Positions 51,090 to 60,056 of a stretch of 64,000 bases of DNA are shown in pieces. The DNA is taken from contig CAKZOB010000006.1 in assembly GCA_937135955.1 (NCBI GenBank), positions 1 to 64,000 on the forward strand, given 5' to 3'. A program made the position numbers and the translations under genes. The stretch's first letter is position 1; the number at the start of each line of letters is the position of its first letter. The notes under the pieces are model-generated. The model saw nothing but the letters and a program-made list of their open reading frames with translations. It did not search any database and was not told the origin of the DNA. The stretch is from an uncultured Anaerolineales bacterium. GTDB lineage: Bacteria; Chloroflexota; Anaerolineae; Aggregatilineales; Aggregatilineaceae.

Positions 51090-51151
51090 GTGCCTGGAGG
51101 TGAGTGGAACTCGCACAAGAGGCCGATCCTCAAACTAGAAAGGAGTGTTGT

Positions 51152-53269
51152 ATGCCAAGAAAATTGCTGTTGTTCGCAGGGTTGCTGCTGCTGGCGGCGG
51201 CGTTCGCCGTCTGGCAGCACGACGCTCCGGGGCAGGTGCAGGCCCAGGGCGGAGAAGGAGAATGCAAGGGCGAGCCGTGCCCGGCGTGGATCGTCGAGGC
51301 ATGGGCTGGCTCTGGGCACGCTGACTCCACCGCCGAAGCCTTCCGGCACTGGGACAACGAAGACCCCCAGCAAATTCCAGTGGCCTGTGCCAAATGTCAC
51401 AGTGAGACCGGCTATATTGACTTCCTGGGCGACGACGGCTCTGCCGCCGGTGTGGTGGACGCAGCAGCGCCCATCGGCACGGTGGTGAGCTGCTCGGCCT
51501 GCCACAGCCCCAGCGCTGCCAGCAAGACCAGCGTCGTCTTCCCCTCCGGCGTCGAGATCACAGGCCTTGATGCCTCGGCTCGCTGCATGGAGTGCCATCA
51601 GGGCCGCGAGTCGAAGGTCAGCGTGGACAATGCCATCGCTGCCTCTGGCCTTGGTCCCGACGAGTCCAGCCCAGACCTGGGCTTCCGCAACATTCACTAC
51701 TTTGCGGCGGCGTCCAGCCTGTATGGGTCGGAAGTACACGGTAGCTACGAGTACGACGGCCTGCGTTACCAGACCAAGTTCGAGCACGTGCCGGGCTACG
51801 ATAGCTGCATTGGCTGCCACAACCCGCATACGCTGGAACTGAAGATCAACGAGTGCTCGGTCTGCCATGCCAACGTCGCCAGCGCCGAGGATGTGAAGAA
51901 GATTCGGATGCCAGGGTCGTTGGTGGACTACGACGGCGACGGCAGCCTGGACGAGAGCCTCTACGACGAACTGCAAGGCTTGCAGGCCCTGCTCTACCAG
52001 GCCATCCAGGCCTACGCTGCGGAGGTTGTGGGCACGCCTATCGTCTATGAAGGCCACACCTACCCCTACTTCTTCATTGACACCAACGCCAACGGTGCAG
52101 TAGACGAGGGCGAGGCTGCTTTCCCGAATCGCTACAATGCCTTCACACCGCGTCTGCTGCGCGCCGCCTACAACTACCAGGCCTACGAGAAAGACCCTGG
52201 CGCGTTTGCCCACAACGGCAAGTATCACGCGCAGGTGCTCTACGACTCGATCGCTTCGCTCAACGAAGCGCTGTCGCAGCCGGTGAGCCTGGCGCAGGCG
52301 CAACGTAACCCGCCCGGTCACTTTGACGGGACGGCGGAGGCCTTCCGTCACTGGGATGCTGAGGGTGAGGTGCCCGGTGCCTGCACCAAGTGCCATACCG
52401 CCGAAGGGCTGCCGTTCTTCTTCGACCAGGGCGTGACCATCGCCTTCCCGCCTTCGACCTCGCTGGCTTGCTCGACCTGCCACACCAACTTCCAGGACTT
52501 CGCGCTTTACCAGTCCAACGAAGTGACCTTCCCCAGCGGGGCCAAGTTGAGCTTTGGCGAAGGTGTGGACTCGAACCTGTGCCTCAACTGCCATCAAGGG
52601 CGTGAGTCTACGGTGTCGGTCAACCAGCATCTGGCCAGTGTGGGTGTCGGCGATGACGAAGTCTCCGACAAGATTCGCTTCCGCAACATCCACTACTTCG
52701 CCGCCGGGGCCACGCTCTTCGGCCACGAGGCGCAGGGCGTGTATGAGTACGAGGGCAAGGAATACGTCGGGCGCTTCGCTCACGTGCCGGGCTTCGACAC
52801 CTGCCAGAACTGCCACGATGTCCATCAGTTGACGGTGCAGGTGCAGGCGTGCACCGCCTGCCACGGACAGTTCGAAGAAGTCGAGGACATCCGCATGATG
52901 TCCGGCGACTTCGACGGTGACGGCGCGCAGGAAGGCGTCGCGGGCGAGCTGGAGACCATGCACGAGGCGCTGCTGACGGCCATTCAGGCCTACGCAGCGA
53001 GCACAGCGGGCACGCCCATCGCCTACAACCCGGCGCGTTACCCGTACTGGTTCGTAGATGCCAACGGCAACGGTATGGCTGACCCGGACGAGGGCGACGG
53101 CTATGCGTCCTGGACGCCGCGCCTGCTGCGCGCTGCCTACAACTATCAGTACGCAGCCAAGGACCCCGGCGCGTTCGCACACAACGCCAGGTACGTGGCG
53201 CAGGTGCTCTACGATAGCCTGCAGGACATCGGCGGTGACGCGGCTGTCGCTGGCATGAGCCGGCCCTAG
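51152..53269 (+). CDS. Decahaem c-type cytochrome built from two pentahaem repeats
   Basis: 705 residues from the ATG at 51152 (AAAGGAGTG upstream). A signal peptide (LLLFAGLLLLAAAFAVW) exports it. Ten CxxCH motifs are present: CAKCH, CSACH, CMECH, CIGCH and CSVCH in the first half, then CTKCH, CSTCH, CLNCH, CQNCH and CTACH in the second. The halves align along their whole length: each begins TAEAFRHWD, has CHQGRES at haem 3 or 8, FRNIHYFAA after it, and ends with TPRLLRAAYNYQ and KDPGAFAHN. This is an internal duplication. It has no membrane anchor, so it is extracytoplasmic. It probably exchanges electrons with the NapC-like protein encoded next. The redox partner or substrate is unknown. 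Confidence 0.85.
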   Translation: MPRKLLLFAGLLLLAAAFAVWQHDAPGQVQAQGGEGECKGEPCPAWIVEAWAGSGHADSTAEAFRHWDNEDPQQIPVACAKCHSETGYIDFLGDDGSAAGVVDAAAPIGTVVSCSACHSPSAASKTSVVFPSGVEITGLDASARCMECHQGRESKVSVDNAIAASGLGPDESSPDLGFRNIHYFAAASSLYGSEVHGSYEYDGLRYQTKFEHVPGYDSCIGCHNPHTLELKINECSVCHANVASAEDVKKIRMPGSLVDYDGDGSLDESLYDELQGLQALLYQAIQAYAAEVVGTPIVYEGHTYPYFFIDTNANGAVDEGEAAFPNRYNAFTPRLLRAAYNYQAYEKDPGAFAHNGKYHAQVLYDSIASLNEALSQPVSLAQAQRNPPGHFDGTAEAFRHWDAEGEVPGACTKCHTAEGLPFFFDQGVTIAFPPSTSLACSTCHTNFQDFALYQSNEVTFPSGAKLSFGEGVDSNLCLNCHQGRESTVSVNQHLASVGVGDDEVSDKIRFRNIHYFAAGATLFGHEAQGVYEYEGKEYVGRFAHVPGFDTCQNCHDVHQLTVQVQACTACHGQFEEVEDIRMMSGDFDGDGAQEGVAGELETMHEALLTAIQAYAASTAGTPIAYNPARYPYWFVDANGNGMADPDEGDGYASWTPRLLRAAYNYQYAAKDPGAFAHNARYVAQVLYDSLQDIGGDAAVAGMSRP

Positions 53270-53433: not shown

Positions 53434-55419
53434 ATGATCAGCCGTTTTCGCCGTTTTCTTTTCCCTGAGGGCAACCTGTCAAAAGCGCGCCGCTACGGGC
53501 CGTGGATGCTGGTGATGGCCGTGCCGGTATTCCTGCTGCTGGCCATCCCGCCCGCCTGGGAATACAGCAACACAGCCAGCTTCTGCGGCACCACCTGTCA
53601 CACCATGCCGCCCGAATACAACACCTATCTGGTCTCGCCGCACGCGCGCGTCCCCTGCGTGGACTGTCATATCGGGCGCGACTGGATCGCCAAACAGGCC
53701 CTCCGCAAGTCCGAGCATGTGACGCTGATCTACAAGACGCTCACCGGCGATTACGAATATCCCATTCGGGTCAGCAGTATGCGTCCGGCCCGCGAGACCT
53801 GCGAGCGCTGCCACTACCCGCAGAAGTTCTCCGACGATAGCCTGCGCGTCATCTACCGCTACGACGACAGCGAAGACAACCTGCCCTATCAGATATACCT
53901 GCTGATGCACACCGGCGGCGGCAGTCAACGCGAGGGGCTGGGGCGCGGCATTCACTGGCATATCGAAAATAAGATCGAGTACATCACCACCGATCCCGAA
54001 CACCAGGATATCCCCTGGGTGCGCGTTCAGTATGCCGACGGCAGCACGGACGAGTTCGTCTCGCTGGAAGCGACCATTGACACGTCCAATCTCGCTCAGT
54101 ACACCCTGCACGAGATGGACTGCATCTCCTGCCATAACCGTATTTCGCACCTTATCCCGCCCCCGCGCACGCTGGTAGATACGGCGCTCTTCCGCGGCGA
54201 TCTTTCGCCGGACATCCCCTATATTCGCGCCCGCGCTGTGGAGATTCTCTCGCTCGTCGAAGAAGAGGCCGTGCGGGAGGCGCTGGATGAGTTGCGTTCG
54301 TTCTATCAGACCGAGTACGCGGACTTCTACGCCCAGAACCAGGCAGAGGTCGAGAGCGCCATCGCGCTGATCGGGCAAATCTACCAGGACAACACCTATC
54401 CGGAACAGGAACTGAACTGGCAGACGCACCCCAACAACATTGGTCACCGCGATTCGCCGGGGTGTTTCCGCTGTCACGATGGCAAGCATTTCAACGCCGC
54501 GGGCGAGGCGATCCGCCTGGAGTGTAACCTGTGCCACTCCATCCCGCAGATCGTGCGACCGGGTGTGATCGAGCCGCTCATGCCCCTGACGACGGGCCTG
54601 GAGCCAGCCTCGCACCTGGACACAACCTGGATCGCGCGGCACCATGTGGCGCTCGACGAAACCTGCGCCAACTGCCATACCGTCGAAAACCCCGGCGGCA
54701 CCACCGATACCAGCTTCTGCTCCAATAGCGGCTGTCATGGCGTGGACTGGCGCTACGCTGGCTTCAATGCTCCGGCGCTGGCGGCGGCCCTGGGCCTGGA
54801 TCAGGGGCCGGAGACGCCACCGACCGCCGTCGAAGTGCCGGAAGGCGAGTCCATCACCTATCAGCAACTACAACCCGTGTTTGAGCAGCAGTGTGCTCAG
54901 TGTCATGGCGCTGCGCCGATCAAGGGTCTGCGCGTGACCGACTATGATAGCCTGATGGCGGGGAGCGAAGACGGGCCGGTGATCGTGCCGGGGTCGCCGG
55001 AGGAGAGCAAGATCATCGCCGTGCTGGAAGCCGGGCACTTCGCCAAACTGAGCGACGAGCAGATGGCCTGGCTGCGCCAGTGGATCGCTGACGGCGCGCC
55101 TGCTGGAGCTGTTGCGCCCGCCGAAAAGGTCGCGCCGACCGCGCCCGCCGGGCCGATCAGCTACGAGCAGATCGGGCCGGTGCTGACCGAAACCTGTGGG
55201 GCCTGTCATGGTGACGCCAAGGCCAGGGGATTGCGCGTGACGGATTACGGTAGCCTGATGGAAGGGAGCGACTCCGGGCCGGTGATCGTGCCGGGGTCGC
55301 CGGAGGAGAGCAAGATCATCGCCGTGCTGGAAGCCGGGCACTTCGCCAAACTGAGCGACGAGCAGATGGCCTGGCTGCGCCAGTGGATCGCCGACGGCGC
55401 GCCAGAGACTCTTGAATGA
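53434..55419 (+). CDS. NapC/NirT-type membrane multihaem cytochrome with two C-terminal cytochrome repeats
   Basis: 661 residues. An N-terminal helix (GPWMLVMAVPVFLLLAIPPAW) precedes the NapC/NirT-like haem domain. Haem motifs in order: CGTTCH (CX3CH), CVDCH, CERCH, CISCH, CFRCH, CNLCH, CANCH, CSNSGCH (CX4CH), CAQCH, CGACH. The last two head tandem 101-residue repeats containing GLRVTDY, SLMxGS and GPVIVPGSPEESKII, related to the planctomycete-type cytochrome C domain. The repeats share 116 identical consecutive base pairs (54973-55088 and 55276-55391), so the duplication is recent or being homogenised. It likely takes electrons from the quinone pool and passes them to the soluble decahaem protein or an extracellular acceptor; this is inferred. 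Confidence 0.85.
   Translation: MISRFRRFLFPEGNLSKARRYGPWMLVMAVPVFLLLAIPPAWEYSNTASFCGTTCHTMPPEYNTYLVSPHARVPCVDCHIGRDWIAKQALRKSEHVTLIYKTLTGDYEYPIRVSSMRPARETCERCHYPQKFSDDSLRVIYRYDDSEDNLPYQIYLLMHTGGGSQREGLGRGIHWHIENKIEYITTDPEHQDIPWVRVQYADGSTDEFVSLEATIDTSNLAQYTLHEMDCISCHNRISHLIPPPRTLVDTALFRGDLSPDIPYIRARAVEILSLVEEEAVREALDELRSFYQTEYADFYAQNQAEVESAIALIGQIYQDNTYPEQELNWQTHPNNIGHRDSPGCFRCHDGKHFNAAGEAIRLECNLCHSIPQIVRPGVIEPLMPLTTGLEPASHLDTTWIARHHVALDETCANCHTVENPGGTTDTSFCSNSGCHGVDWRYAGFNAPALAAALGLDQGPETPPTAVEVPEGESITYQQLQPVFEQQCAQCHGAAPIKGLRVTDYDSLMAGSEDGPVIVPGSPEESKIIAVLEAGHFAKLSDEQMAWLRQWIADGAPAGAVAPAEKVAPTAPAGPISYEQIGPVLTETCGACHGDAKARGLRVTDYGSLMEGSDSGPVIVPGSPEESKIIAVLEAGHFAKLSDEQMAWLRQWIADGAPETLE
54973..55391 (+). 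repeat. Tandem 303-bp coding repeat
   Basis: Two units offset by exactly 303 bp (101 codons) inside the NapC-like gene. Positions 54973-55088 and 55276-55391 are identical; the flanks (haem-motif part) have diverged. Confidence 0.88.
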
Positions 55420-55671: not shown

Positions 55672-55700
55672 TTGACGAAGCGCCCCCGCCGTGTTACGCT
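55672..55700 (+). promoter_or_regulatory. Promoter of the lysC leader
   Basis: TTGACG (55672-55677), 17-nt spacer, TACGCT (55695-55700). Predicted transcription start near 55707, about 28 nt before the leader-peptide ATG. Confidence 0.6.
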
Positions 55701-55734
55701 TTAACACACATCGGCTTCGACAGGAGCAGCGGCT

Positions 55735-55848
55735 ATGTTCGCCGGTCACGAGCTGACCACCATGGCGACCATGATGATGACCACCGGCATGGGTACCATG
55801 ACTACCGGGCGGGCGTTGCCGGCTGCTTCCGGAGCGAGGTCGCGGTAG
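55735..55848 (+). CDS. Thr/Met-rich leader peptide of the lysC attenuator
   Basis: A 37-residue reading frame with AGGAG 8 nt before its ATG at 55735 and a TAG at 55846-55848. Eight residues are Thr and seven (including the start) are Met, concentrated between residues 8 and 24, for example TTMATMMMTTGMGTMTTG. It lies 92 bp before the lysC start and is followed by complementary segments and an intrinsic terminator. The composition and position match the control peptides of amino-acid biosynthesis operons, in which ribosome stalling on scarce charged tRNA selects an antiterminator. Threonine and methionine are both end products of the aspartate pathway that LysC feeds. The peptide itself probably has no function after release. 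Confidence 0.82.
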   Translation: MFAGHELTTMATMMMTTGMGTMTTGRALPAASGARSR

Positions 55849-55895
55849 GGTGTAGCAGACTACCCCAGGAACCCTCAAGCGCGGAGCAGACCGGC
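55818..55895 (+). promoter_or_regulatory. Candidate antiterminator of the lysC attenuator
   Basis: GCCGGCTGCTTCC (55818-55830), inside the last third of the leader-peptide frame, can pair with GGAGCAGACCGGC (55883-55895) to form 12 base pairs with two single-base bulges. The downstream segment takes the top of the terminator stem and its loop, so the two structures compete. A ribosome that completes the leader would cover the upstream segment and leave the terminator free; a stalled one would not. A third small hairpin (GGGTGTAG / CTACCCC, 55848-55866) may act as an anti-antiterminator. Confidence 0.65.
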
Positions 55896-55911
55896 CCCGC
55901 GCTTTTTATTT
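55877..55911 (+). terminator. Intrinsic terminator in the lysC leader
   Basis: An 8-bp stem AAGCGCGG (55877-55884) / CCGCGCTT (55897-55904) with a 12-nt loop, followed directly by TTTATTT. It lies 30 bp before the lysC start, after the leader peptide, as expected for an attenuator. Confidence 0.85.
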
Positions 55912-55940
55912 CGGGCAGCGTGGCAAACAGGAGGGAGAGC

Positions 55941-57362
55941 ATGGCAACTCTGACCATGAAATTTGGCGGGACTTCGGTGGGCAACGCCGAGGCCATCGCC
56001 CGTGTCGCCGACATCGTCGAGCAGGCAGCGCGCGAACATCGTGTGCTGGTGGTGTGTTCGGCCATGAGCGGCGTGACCAACCTGCTGATCGAGGCCGCGC
56101 AACGCGCCGCCGCCGGAGATGCCGCCCGCTACCAGCTGATCGCCCAGGAACTACGTCAGAAGCACGAAGCCGCCATCCGCGCCCTGCTGACCTCCGATGT
56201 GGAGCGCATCGCCATTCACGACGAGGTTGAGGCGCTGATTGACGAGTTCGAGACGCTCTGTTACGGCATCTATGTGCTGCGCGAAGCTTCACCAAAGGCC
56301 ATGGACAAGGTTGCTTCGCTGGGCGAGCGGATGAGCGTGCCCATTGTCTCGGCATTGCTGCGTCAGCGCGGCGTGCCCAGTTGCACGGTGAGCGCCAGCC
56401 GCCTGATCGTCACCGACGATCAGTTTCAGAACGCCGGAGTGCAGTTCGAGGAGTCGGAGGCGAACGTCCGCCGCGAACTCTTGCCGCTGCTCGATCAGGG
56501 CCTGGTGCCGGTAGTGACGGGCTTCATCGGGGCCACGCGCGACGGCGTAGTGACCACCCTGGGGCGCGGGGGCAGCGACTACAGCGCGGCGCTGCTGGGC
56601 GCGTATGTGGATAGCGACGAAGTGTGGATTTGGACGGACGTGGACGGCGTGATGACCGCTGATCCGCGCCTGGTGCCCGACGCCCGCGTCATCCCCGTGC
56701 TGTCCTATGGCGAAGTGGGCGAGATGGCCTACTTCGGCGCGAAAGTCCTGCACTCCAAGACGGTGCAGCCGCTGGTAGAGCGCAATATTCCGGTGCGCGT
56801 GAAAAATACCTTCAACCCCCAGGCCGAGGGCACGCTGATCGTGCGCGAGGGGCGCGAGACGCCCGGCACGGTCAAGGCGGTCACCGCCATTCGCGACGTG
56901 AGCCTGGTCACCGTGGCCGGACGCGGCATGATCGGCGTGCCGGGCATTGCCGCGCGGACGTTCTCGGCGGTGGCCAAGCGCCAGGCCAACGTGTTGATGA
57001 TCGCGCAGTCGTCCAGCGAGCAAAGCATCTGCTTTGTGGTGCCCGAAGCCAAGAGCCGCGAGGTCGTGGCGGCGATCCAGGCAGAATTGGAGACAGAGTT
57101 CGGTCGCCAGGATATTGACCGCGCCTGGGCCGACGACGATGTGGAGATCATCACCGTGGTGGGGGTGGGCATGTTGCGTCAGCACGGGGTCGCGGCGCGC
57201 GTCTTTGGGGCGCTGGGCGAGGCGGGCGTGAATATATTGGCCATCGCGCACGGGGCCAGCGACTATTGTGTCTCGATGGTGGTGCGCAGCAGCGACACCG
57301 AACGGGGTGTGCAGGCCATTCACAAGCTGGTCGTGCTCAATGGCGGCGGAGCGAAAGGGTAA
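55941..57362 (+). CDS. lysC: Aspartate kinase
   Basis: 473 residues from the ATG at 55941, with AGGAGGGAG upstream; an in-frame ORF extends into the attenuator region but the start is clear. The kinase domain begins MKFGGTSVG (Lys at residue 7), with VTGFIGATRDGVVTTLGRGGSDYSA holding the catalytic and ATP-binding residues and VWIWTDVDGVMTADPR the nucleotide site. Two ACT domains follow (VTVAGRGMIGVPGIAARTFSA and VVGVGMLRQHGVAARVFGALG), as in monofunctional, feedback-inhibited enzymes. It phosphorylates aspartate as the first step to lysine, threonine and methionine. The length and the KFGG motif fit the group with adjacent regulatory ACT domains. Expression is probably set by the leader attenuator. 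Confidence 0.95.
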   Translation: MATLTMKFGGTSVGNAEAIARVADIVEQAAREHRVLVVCSAMSGVTNLLIEAAQRAAAGDAARYQLIAQELRQKHEAAIRALLTSDVERIAIHDEVEALIDEFETLCYGIYVLREASPKAMDKVASLGERMSVPIVSALLRQRGVPSCTVSASRLIVTDDQFQNAGVQFEESEANVRRELLPLLDQGLVPVVTGFIGATRDGVVTTLGRGGSDYSAALLGAYVDSDEVWIWTDVDGVMTADPRLVPDARVIPVLSYGEVGEMAYFGAKVLHSKTVQPLVERNIPVRVKNTFNPQAEGTLIVREGRETPGTVKAVTAIRDVSLVTVAGRGMIGVPGIAARTFSAVAKRQANVLMIAQSSSEQSICFVVPEAKSREVVAAIQAELETEFGRQDIDRAWADDDVEIITVVGVGMLRQHGVAARVFGALGEAGVNILAIAHGASDYCVSMVVRSSDTERGVQAIHKLVVLNGGGAKG

Positions 57363-57455: not shown

Positions 57456-58688
<1,233 letters not shown>

Positions 58689-58712
58689 AGCGCGCACCTC
58701 CTGAGGGATCAC

Positions 58713-60056
<1,344 letters not shown>

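Follow-up and report, generated by a model that had tools for sequence, protein, structure and literature searches.

A predicted leader-peptide attenuator with threonine and methionine codons in front of the aspartate kinase gene lysC in Anaerolineae

The aspartate kinase gene lysC is often under the control of lysine riboswitches. In Escherichia coli the thrL leader with its Thr and Ile codons stands before thrA, the gene of a fused aspartate kinase-homoserine dehydrogenase, and two amino acids are sensed. Homoserine gives rise to two amino acids, Thr and Met; lysine is the third product of the pathway. Several Met and Thr codons, as in the leader reported here, are found in the metL leader MSTTSDRTPATEATTTPGARCMCRRMCAF of Streptomyces lividans, but that leader precedes the Met importer operon metNIQ and not lysC or hom, and no clear terminator was found there (PMC8079986). 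The metL of Campylobacter jejuni is likewise a leader peptide named after methionine, with a start signal seen by Ribo-seq; the passages dealing with it neither describe it as a Thr plus Met leader nor link it to aspartate kinase (PMC11955535). The pheL-pheA system of E. coli and the Acholeplasma aroF leader (uORFC-13-1, PMC8632094) work like the Phe/Tyr elements presented below but belong to another phylum and have another structure, whereas our Phe/Tyr elements resemble the Thr/Met elements. In a survey of the Actinobacteria the operons for threonine, lysine and methionine were without such an element (PMC1262725). In 2013 a survey of the attenuators listed in Rfam saw these as mainly gamma-proteobacterial, with a possible origin there and very few horizontal transfers (PMC3766115). 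In the open-licence literature we found no leader-peptide attenuator in Chloroflexota and no Thr plus Met leader on lysC or hom, and within this literature the claim of a first-pass annotation that such a leader is undescribed for lysC holds.

That annotation concerned a stretch of 64,000 nucleotides from an uncultured Anaerolineales bacterium, here called the window. The features in front of lysC are as follows.

55672-55700, + strand: promoter, with the -35 hexamer TTGACG at 55672-55677, a 17-nt spacer and TACGCT at 55695-55700; extended -10 TGTTACGCT
55722-55726, + strand: Shine-Dalgarno sequence AGGAG of the leader reading frame, 8 nt 5′ of the ATG, from the sequence
55723-55733, + strand: GGAGCAGCGGC, complementary to the antiterminator upstream arm, in the minimum-energy fold without a ribosome; genus-specific
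55735-55848, + strand: reading frame of the leader peptide, 37 codons and TAG, the stop codon at 55846-55848; translation predicted
55756-55806, + strand: cluster of control codons from Thr8 to Thr24, with 8 Thr, 6 Met, no Ile and no Lys
55818-55830, + strand: antiterminator upstream arm GCCGGCTGCTTCC within the leader frame, from covariation and folds
55877-55907, + strand: predicted intrinsic terminator, with an 8-bp stem (55877-55884/55897-55904) and a T-run (55903-55907)
55883-55895, + strand: antiterminator downstream arm GGAGCAGACCGGC, overlapping the 5′ stem and the loop of the terminator
55929-55937, + strand: ribosome-binding site of lysC, AGGAGGGAG, from the sequence
55941-57362, + strand: lysC, monofunctional aspartate kinase of 473 aa (NCBIfam), the presumed regulated gene

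The likeness to thrL/thrABC of E. coli lies in a leader with Thr codons followed by an antiterminator and a terminator before an aspartate kinase gene. The differences are that Thr is paired here with Met and not with Ile, that thrA is fused whereas the genes found here are a monofunctional lysC or a hom-lysC pair, that the phylum is another one and that the Rfam family RF00506 is not matched. The promoter, AGGAG, leader, arms and terminator that had been claimed before lysC were all found where they had been placed, and the count of 8 Thr and 7 Met in the 37 codons, the start Met included, was confirmed from the sequence. The leader peptide reads MFAGHELTTMATMMMTTGMGTMTTGRALPAASGARSR and has Thr or Met at 13 of 16 consecutive codons; a scan of all six frames finds no other part of the 64 kb in which Thr and Met codons are packed as densely. 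The upstream arm comes after the control codons and ahead of the stop codon. Both arms, GCCGGCTGCTTCC and GGAGCAGACCGGC, form 12 pairs with one bulged A, and the strands of the terminator stem are AAGCGCGG and CCGCGCTT. The region thus contains what is expected of an attenuator, namely a reading frame with start codon and ribosome-binding site, a run of codons for end products, a terminator and a competing antiterminator. Generic scanners flagged neither the promoter nor the terminator, because the -10 hexamer TACGCT has no more than 3 of the 6 consensus bases and the loop of the hairpin is longer than 8 nt.

The lysC product scores above the NCBIfam cut-offs (PRK06291, 531 bits against 528; TIGR00656, 402.8 against 402.25) and is the sole full-length aspartate kinase of the genome. 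Directly 5′ of the element two large multihaem cytochrome c proteins are encoded (51104-53269 and 53434-55419, + strand). On the other side, about 4 kb from the leader, a SAM-I riboswitch (60304-60187, - strand) precedes O-acetylhomoserine sulfhydrylase (58713-60044) and then metX (57456-58712), and is adjoined by the aspartate-semialdehyde dehydrogenase gene asd (TIGR00978, 60416-61537, + strand). Thus lysC, metX, metY and asd all lie within 6 kb, and hom is on a different contig. Since the SAM-I riboswitch precedes the sulfhydrylase and metX in the same window, Met status may be read twice, by SAM for the Met branch and by Met-tRNA for the common first step.

A metabolite riboswitch, for lysine, SAM or another ligand, which merely happens to hold a reading frame, could be brought forward in view of the SAM-I riboswitch nearby and of the common control of lysC by lysine riboswitches. 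In an Rfam search, however, the region gave no match, no family came near its gathering score, and the Thr_leader RF00506 was absent at the gathering score and up to E = 10. The covariance models of the lysine riboswitch, the T-box and the SAM riboswitch had no match upstream of lysC. Besides the arm and the terminator there is no conserved core resembling an aptamer, and the type of the codons tracks the pathway. We therefore give this explanation practically no credence.

The family sample comprises 18 genomes, 12 of which carry the element; three have no leader, and in three lysC is missing or located at a contig end. Directly 5′ of lysC the Thr/Met leader occurs in 7 of the 18 genomes (the own genome, L003, L004, L005, L006, L007 and L011). 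In five further genomes, from five related genera (L107-L111), lysC is the second gene of a hom-lysC operon and the element with its leader precedes hom. Thus, of the proposed control of a stand-alone lysC by Thr and Met, the link to lysC is supported and the restriction to stand-alone genes is not. A free-standing hom in genome G007 has a Thr-containing leader and a terminator upstream (L201); at hom in the genus of the window the promoter is kept and the element is absent. In genus g3, three family genomes have no leader before lysC.

The family leaders are not alike in length or sequence (compare MHSGSTFTTTMMMTTMTMWHGGYCRLRAER with MPIETAFSFVTMTTTMTTSTMMMGGRTMPVASRAKRSD); the Thr/Met cluster is kept and the residues besides Thr and Met vary freely. 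After the cluster the relatives have an arm resembling GCCGGYTGCTTC, followed by a stop codon and then by the terminator GCGYGGAGC..CCGGCYCCRCGC, whose stem shows a compensatory C-G/T-A change. The promoter pattern TTGAC..TG.TA..T is present with identical spacing (TTGAC-N18-TAnnnT, the spacer being counted from TTGAC) in 11 of the 12 family elements, and the Shine-Dalgarno sequence AGGAG or GGGAG of the leader is retained within the genus. The alignment with relatives, proposed at first pass as a check, thus reveals that leader, Thr/Met composition, antiterminator and terminator are kept despite sequence divergence.

It could be argued that the hairpin terminates an upstream transcript and that the reading frame codes for a small functional peptide, since the cytochrome gene ending at 55419 is on the same strand and genus g3 has a similar hairpin after the upstream gene with no leader. 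Against this, the residues outside the Thr/Met codons vary as described, the tail of the leader pairs with the hairpin, a promoter separates the upstream gene from the leader, and wherever hom or lysC is placed the element goes with it. We consider this explanation extremely improbable.

The fold energy of the whole window leader is unremarkable by itself (z -1.6), and we therefore relied on covariation. The duplex between the leader tail and the terminator has -25.5 kcal/mol and is better than 98.6% of the dinucleotide shuffles of the leader tail (p ~0.014). By itself the window would thus offer moderate evidence. Over 67 elements of the class, introduced below, each arm paired with its own terminator gives a mean of -22.2 kcal/mol compared with -18.1 kcal/mol (sd 0.34) after permutation; 0 of 5000 permutations were as good as the true partners. 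With one element per genus the numbers are 0 of 20000 for the Thr/Met elements and 84 of 20000 for the family alone. Because each arm fits its own terminator better than the terminators of others, we conclude that the antiterminator co-evolves. The 12-bp complementary pair between leader arm and terminator that had been read from the window is hence found, and it covaries across the 67 elements. In nearly all of them the arm follows the control codons and precedes the stop codon.

These pairings also bear on the idea that the leader acts through translation or Rho-dependent termination, by reinitiation or coupling, and not through an intrinsic terminator. Leader peptides without intrinsic terminators, for which Rho was proposed, are known from Mycobacterium cys operons (PMC1262725), and the leader stop codon is merely 92 nt from lysC. 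Nevertheless every element has a hairpin with a T-run between its leader and the gene, and the 5′ half of this terminator covaries with the leader arm; such a mode of action is very unlikely.

The switch was further modelled by folds in which the RNA was masked up to 14 nt beyond the ribosomal A site. With a ribosome stalled at the control codons, the antiterminator forms before the 3′ stem in 18 of 18 Thr/Met and 45 of 49 Phe/Tyr elements; with the ribosome at the stop codon it forms in 0 of 18 and 1 of 49. The latter result follows largely from the location of the arm, so that it is the consistent arm position and not the fold which is informative. In the window the terminator has an equilibrium probability of 0.96 with no ribosome, 0.00-0.45 with a stalled ribosome and 0.96 with the ribosome at the stop. 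In some homologs the terminator is still favoured at equilibrium, and kinetics must therefore decide. These model folds give the switch that had been predicted, in which the completed leader would hide the arm and allow the terminator. The minimum-energy fold without a ribosome has the arm held by the Shine-Dalgarno region, where GGAGCAGCGGC is a copy of the terminator 5′ segment with the motif GGAGCAG, also present at this place in the relatives L003-L005. An untranslated leader is therefore predicted to terminate.

Taking together anatomy, conservation, covariation, predicted switching and the agreement of codon type with the pathway, we are highly confident that the element is a ribosome-mediated transcription attenuator which senses charged tRNA-Thr and tRNA-Met. 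Judged from the sequence, its mode of action is classical ribosome-mediated attenuation as in trp, thr and his. From these observations we infer that the leader is translated, that termination takes place in vivo, and in which direction and to which amino acids the element responds. We suggest that the control could proceed in the following way. Transcription would start about 30 nt 5′ of the leader and a ribosome would begin the leader peptide. With plentiful Thr and Met the ribosome would reach the stop codon at 55846-55848 and cover the arm at 55818-55830; the hairpin 55877-55904 could then form and transcription would end near 55907. With a shortage of either Thr-tRNA or Met-tRNA, the ribosome would stall within codons 8-24 and leave the arm free, which would pair with 55883-55895 once this is transcribed, block the terminator and allow transcription of lysC. 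In an untranslated leader the terminator would form by default, and GGAGCAGCGGC could hold the arm.

Concerning the amino acids, 41 Thr/Met clusters contain 46% Thr, 24% Met, 1.2% Ile and 1.0% Lys; as the clusters were selected for Thr/Met, the totals are inflated, whereas the selection does not affect how Thr and Met divide this total or the lack of Ile. The Ile which accompanies Thr in the control codons of RF00506 is thus nearly missing, and is absent from the window leader. ACC and ACT are both read by tRNA-Thr(GGU), and these codons make up 85% of the Thr codons in the clusters compared with 55% in the downstream genes (Fisher p = 1e-16), a bias that would be expected if a single tRNA-Thr is sensed. 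Could Thr alone be sensed, the Met codons being incidental or tolerated? Thr does exceed Met in the clusters, and Met is absent from 2 of the 41 (L079 and L317). However, at least two Met are present in 37 of the 41, Met being enriched about ten-fold over its usual share, Ile and Lys are nearly absent, and independent families retain runs of ATG. Sensing of Thr alone is in our view unlikely. Lysine is, by its codons, predicted not to be sensed by the lysC leader element.

From six family lysC elements we built a covariance model of the part from the arm to the terminator. Among 396 class genomes, most of them metagenome-assembled, 108 have a match to it at E ≤ 0.01, and 68 matches, ranked by score, were examined with their flanks. 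Thirteen of these 68 are ordinary terminators without a leader (for example L047, L055 and L070) and were set aside. The other 55 have a leader reading frame with a strong codon cluster which ends 17-58 nt 5′ of the hairpin. Because the model holds almost no leader codons, it put no constraint on the codon type of the matches. Six leaders are Thr/Met-rich, all 5′ of lysC, and 49 are Phe/Tyr-rich (such as ..YAYFYFYF..; L033-L059, L067-L106). Of the latter, 48 precede chorismate mutase, prephenate dehydratase or DAHP synthase genes (aroH/pheA/aroF), the exception being L033 before the gene of a B3/B4-domain-like protein. With the family included, 18 of 18 Thr/Met leaders stand before lysC or hom-lysC, compared with 0 of 49 Phe/Tyr leaders. 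The Phe/Tyr elements have arm and terminator sequence in common with the Thr/Met elements. We predict from these sequences that, throughout the class, chorismate mutase and related genes are under the control of a Phe/Tyr-codon version of the same arm and terminator design; attenuators of this design would then come in two kinds or more, the lysC element being one.

A search of the own genome with the model of the lysC element gave no second strong match. By its codons and not by the model, an aromatic leader ...AWVWFSFYYYFGGVHRAGLSVPSAGVS with a terminator was detected 5′ of aroH (G000:C55:46116-46454, L232), on a contig other than that of lysC; it contains ..AWVWFSFYYYFG.. and is predicted from sequence to be a second leader-peptide attenuator. 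Leaders with W/F/Y were present at 15 of 15 family aroH loci examined.

For 80 further lysC loci of the class the antisense strand was taken as control, because a scan of all amino-acid pairs, intended as null, is dominated in GC-rich DNA by Arg/Gly/Ala-rich out-of-frame translations. The sense strands have 19 leaders with at least 6 Thr/Met in 12 codons, compared with a maximum of 5 on the antisense strands; the majority of these 80 loci have no detectable Thr/Met leader. According to named records, such leaders belong to Anaerolineales and to related MAGs (L117, L120, L125, L129, L134 and L137). In these, arm and terminator have a different sequence (in the Anaerolineales, by eye, GTGAGGC against GCCTCAC), with the order of the parts unchanged. 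At L120 and L125 the leader ATG is just ~9-13 nt 3′ of the -10 hexamer, so these leaders are probably on leaderless or near-leaderless transcripts. Thr-rich leaders also occur before a fused thrA (MFAIIAAFHNTTTCGMTTTMPFGAC) and before homoserine-kinase-like and threonine-synthase-like genes, at L163 (Bacteroidota, Bernardetiaceae), L180 (Acidobacteriota) and L116 (Roseiflexus), hinting at Thr attenuators in these further groups.

Shared ancestry and convergence on the same hairpin both fit the Thr/Met and Phe/Tyr elements. Tentatively, and with some doubt on our side, the Anaerolineae attenuators might be one family by descent, in which the arm-terminator cassette (~GGTTGCTTCACG ... GCGTGGAGCAACCGGCTCCACGCTTTT) was kept and the sensor codons were exchanged, Thr/Met codons before lysC or hom and Phe/Tyr/Trp codons before chorismate mutase. 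If this is true, a modular and re-programmable leader-peptide switch has spread in a phylum without described control of this kind.

In summary, as far as we could find, the Thr plus Met sensor pair on lysC and hom, the phylum Chloroflexota and the evidence of a wider system are new. The Chloroflexota elements argue against the gamma-proteobacterial origin suggested in the 2013 survey (PMC3766115) as a general picture. The predicted elements could serve as portable Thr/Met and Phe/Tyr sensors and would allow a simple prediction of regulation in uncultured genomes. In the 67 elements the type of codon goes with the pathway, and this comes close to a natural codon-swap experiment. The finding would extend classical leader-peptide attenuation to the Chloroflexota, where aspartate kinase would gain a sensor for Thr and Met, two products derived from homoserine, instead of Thr and Ile.
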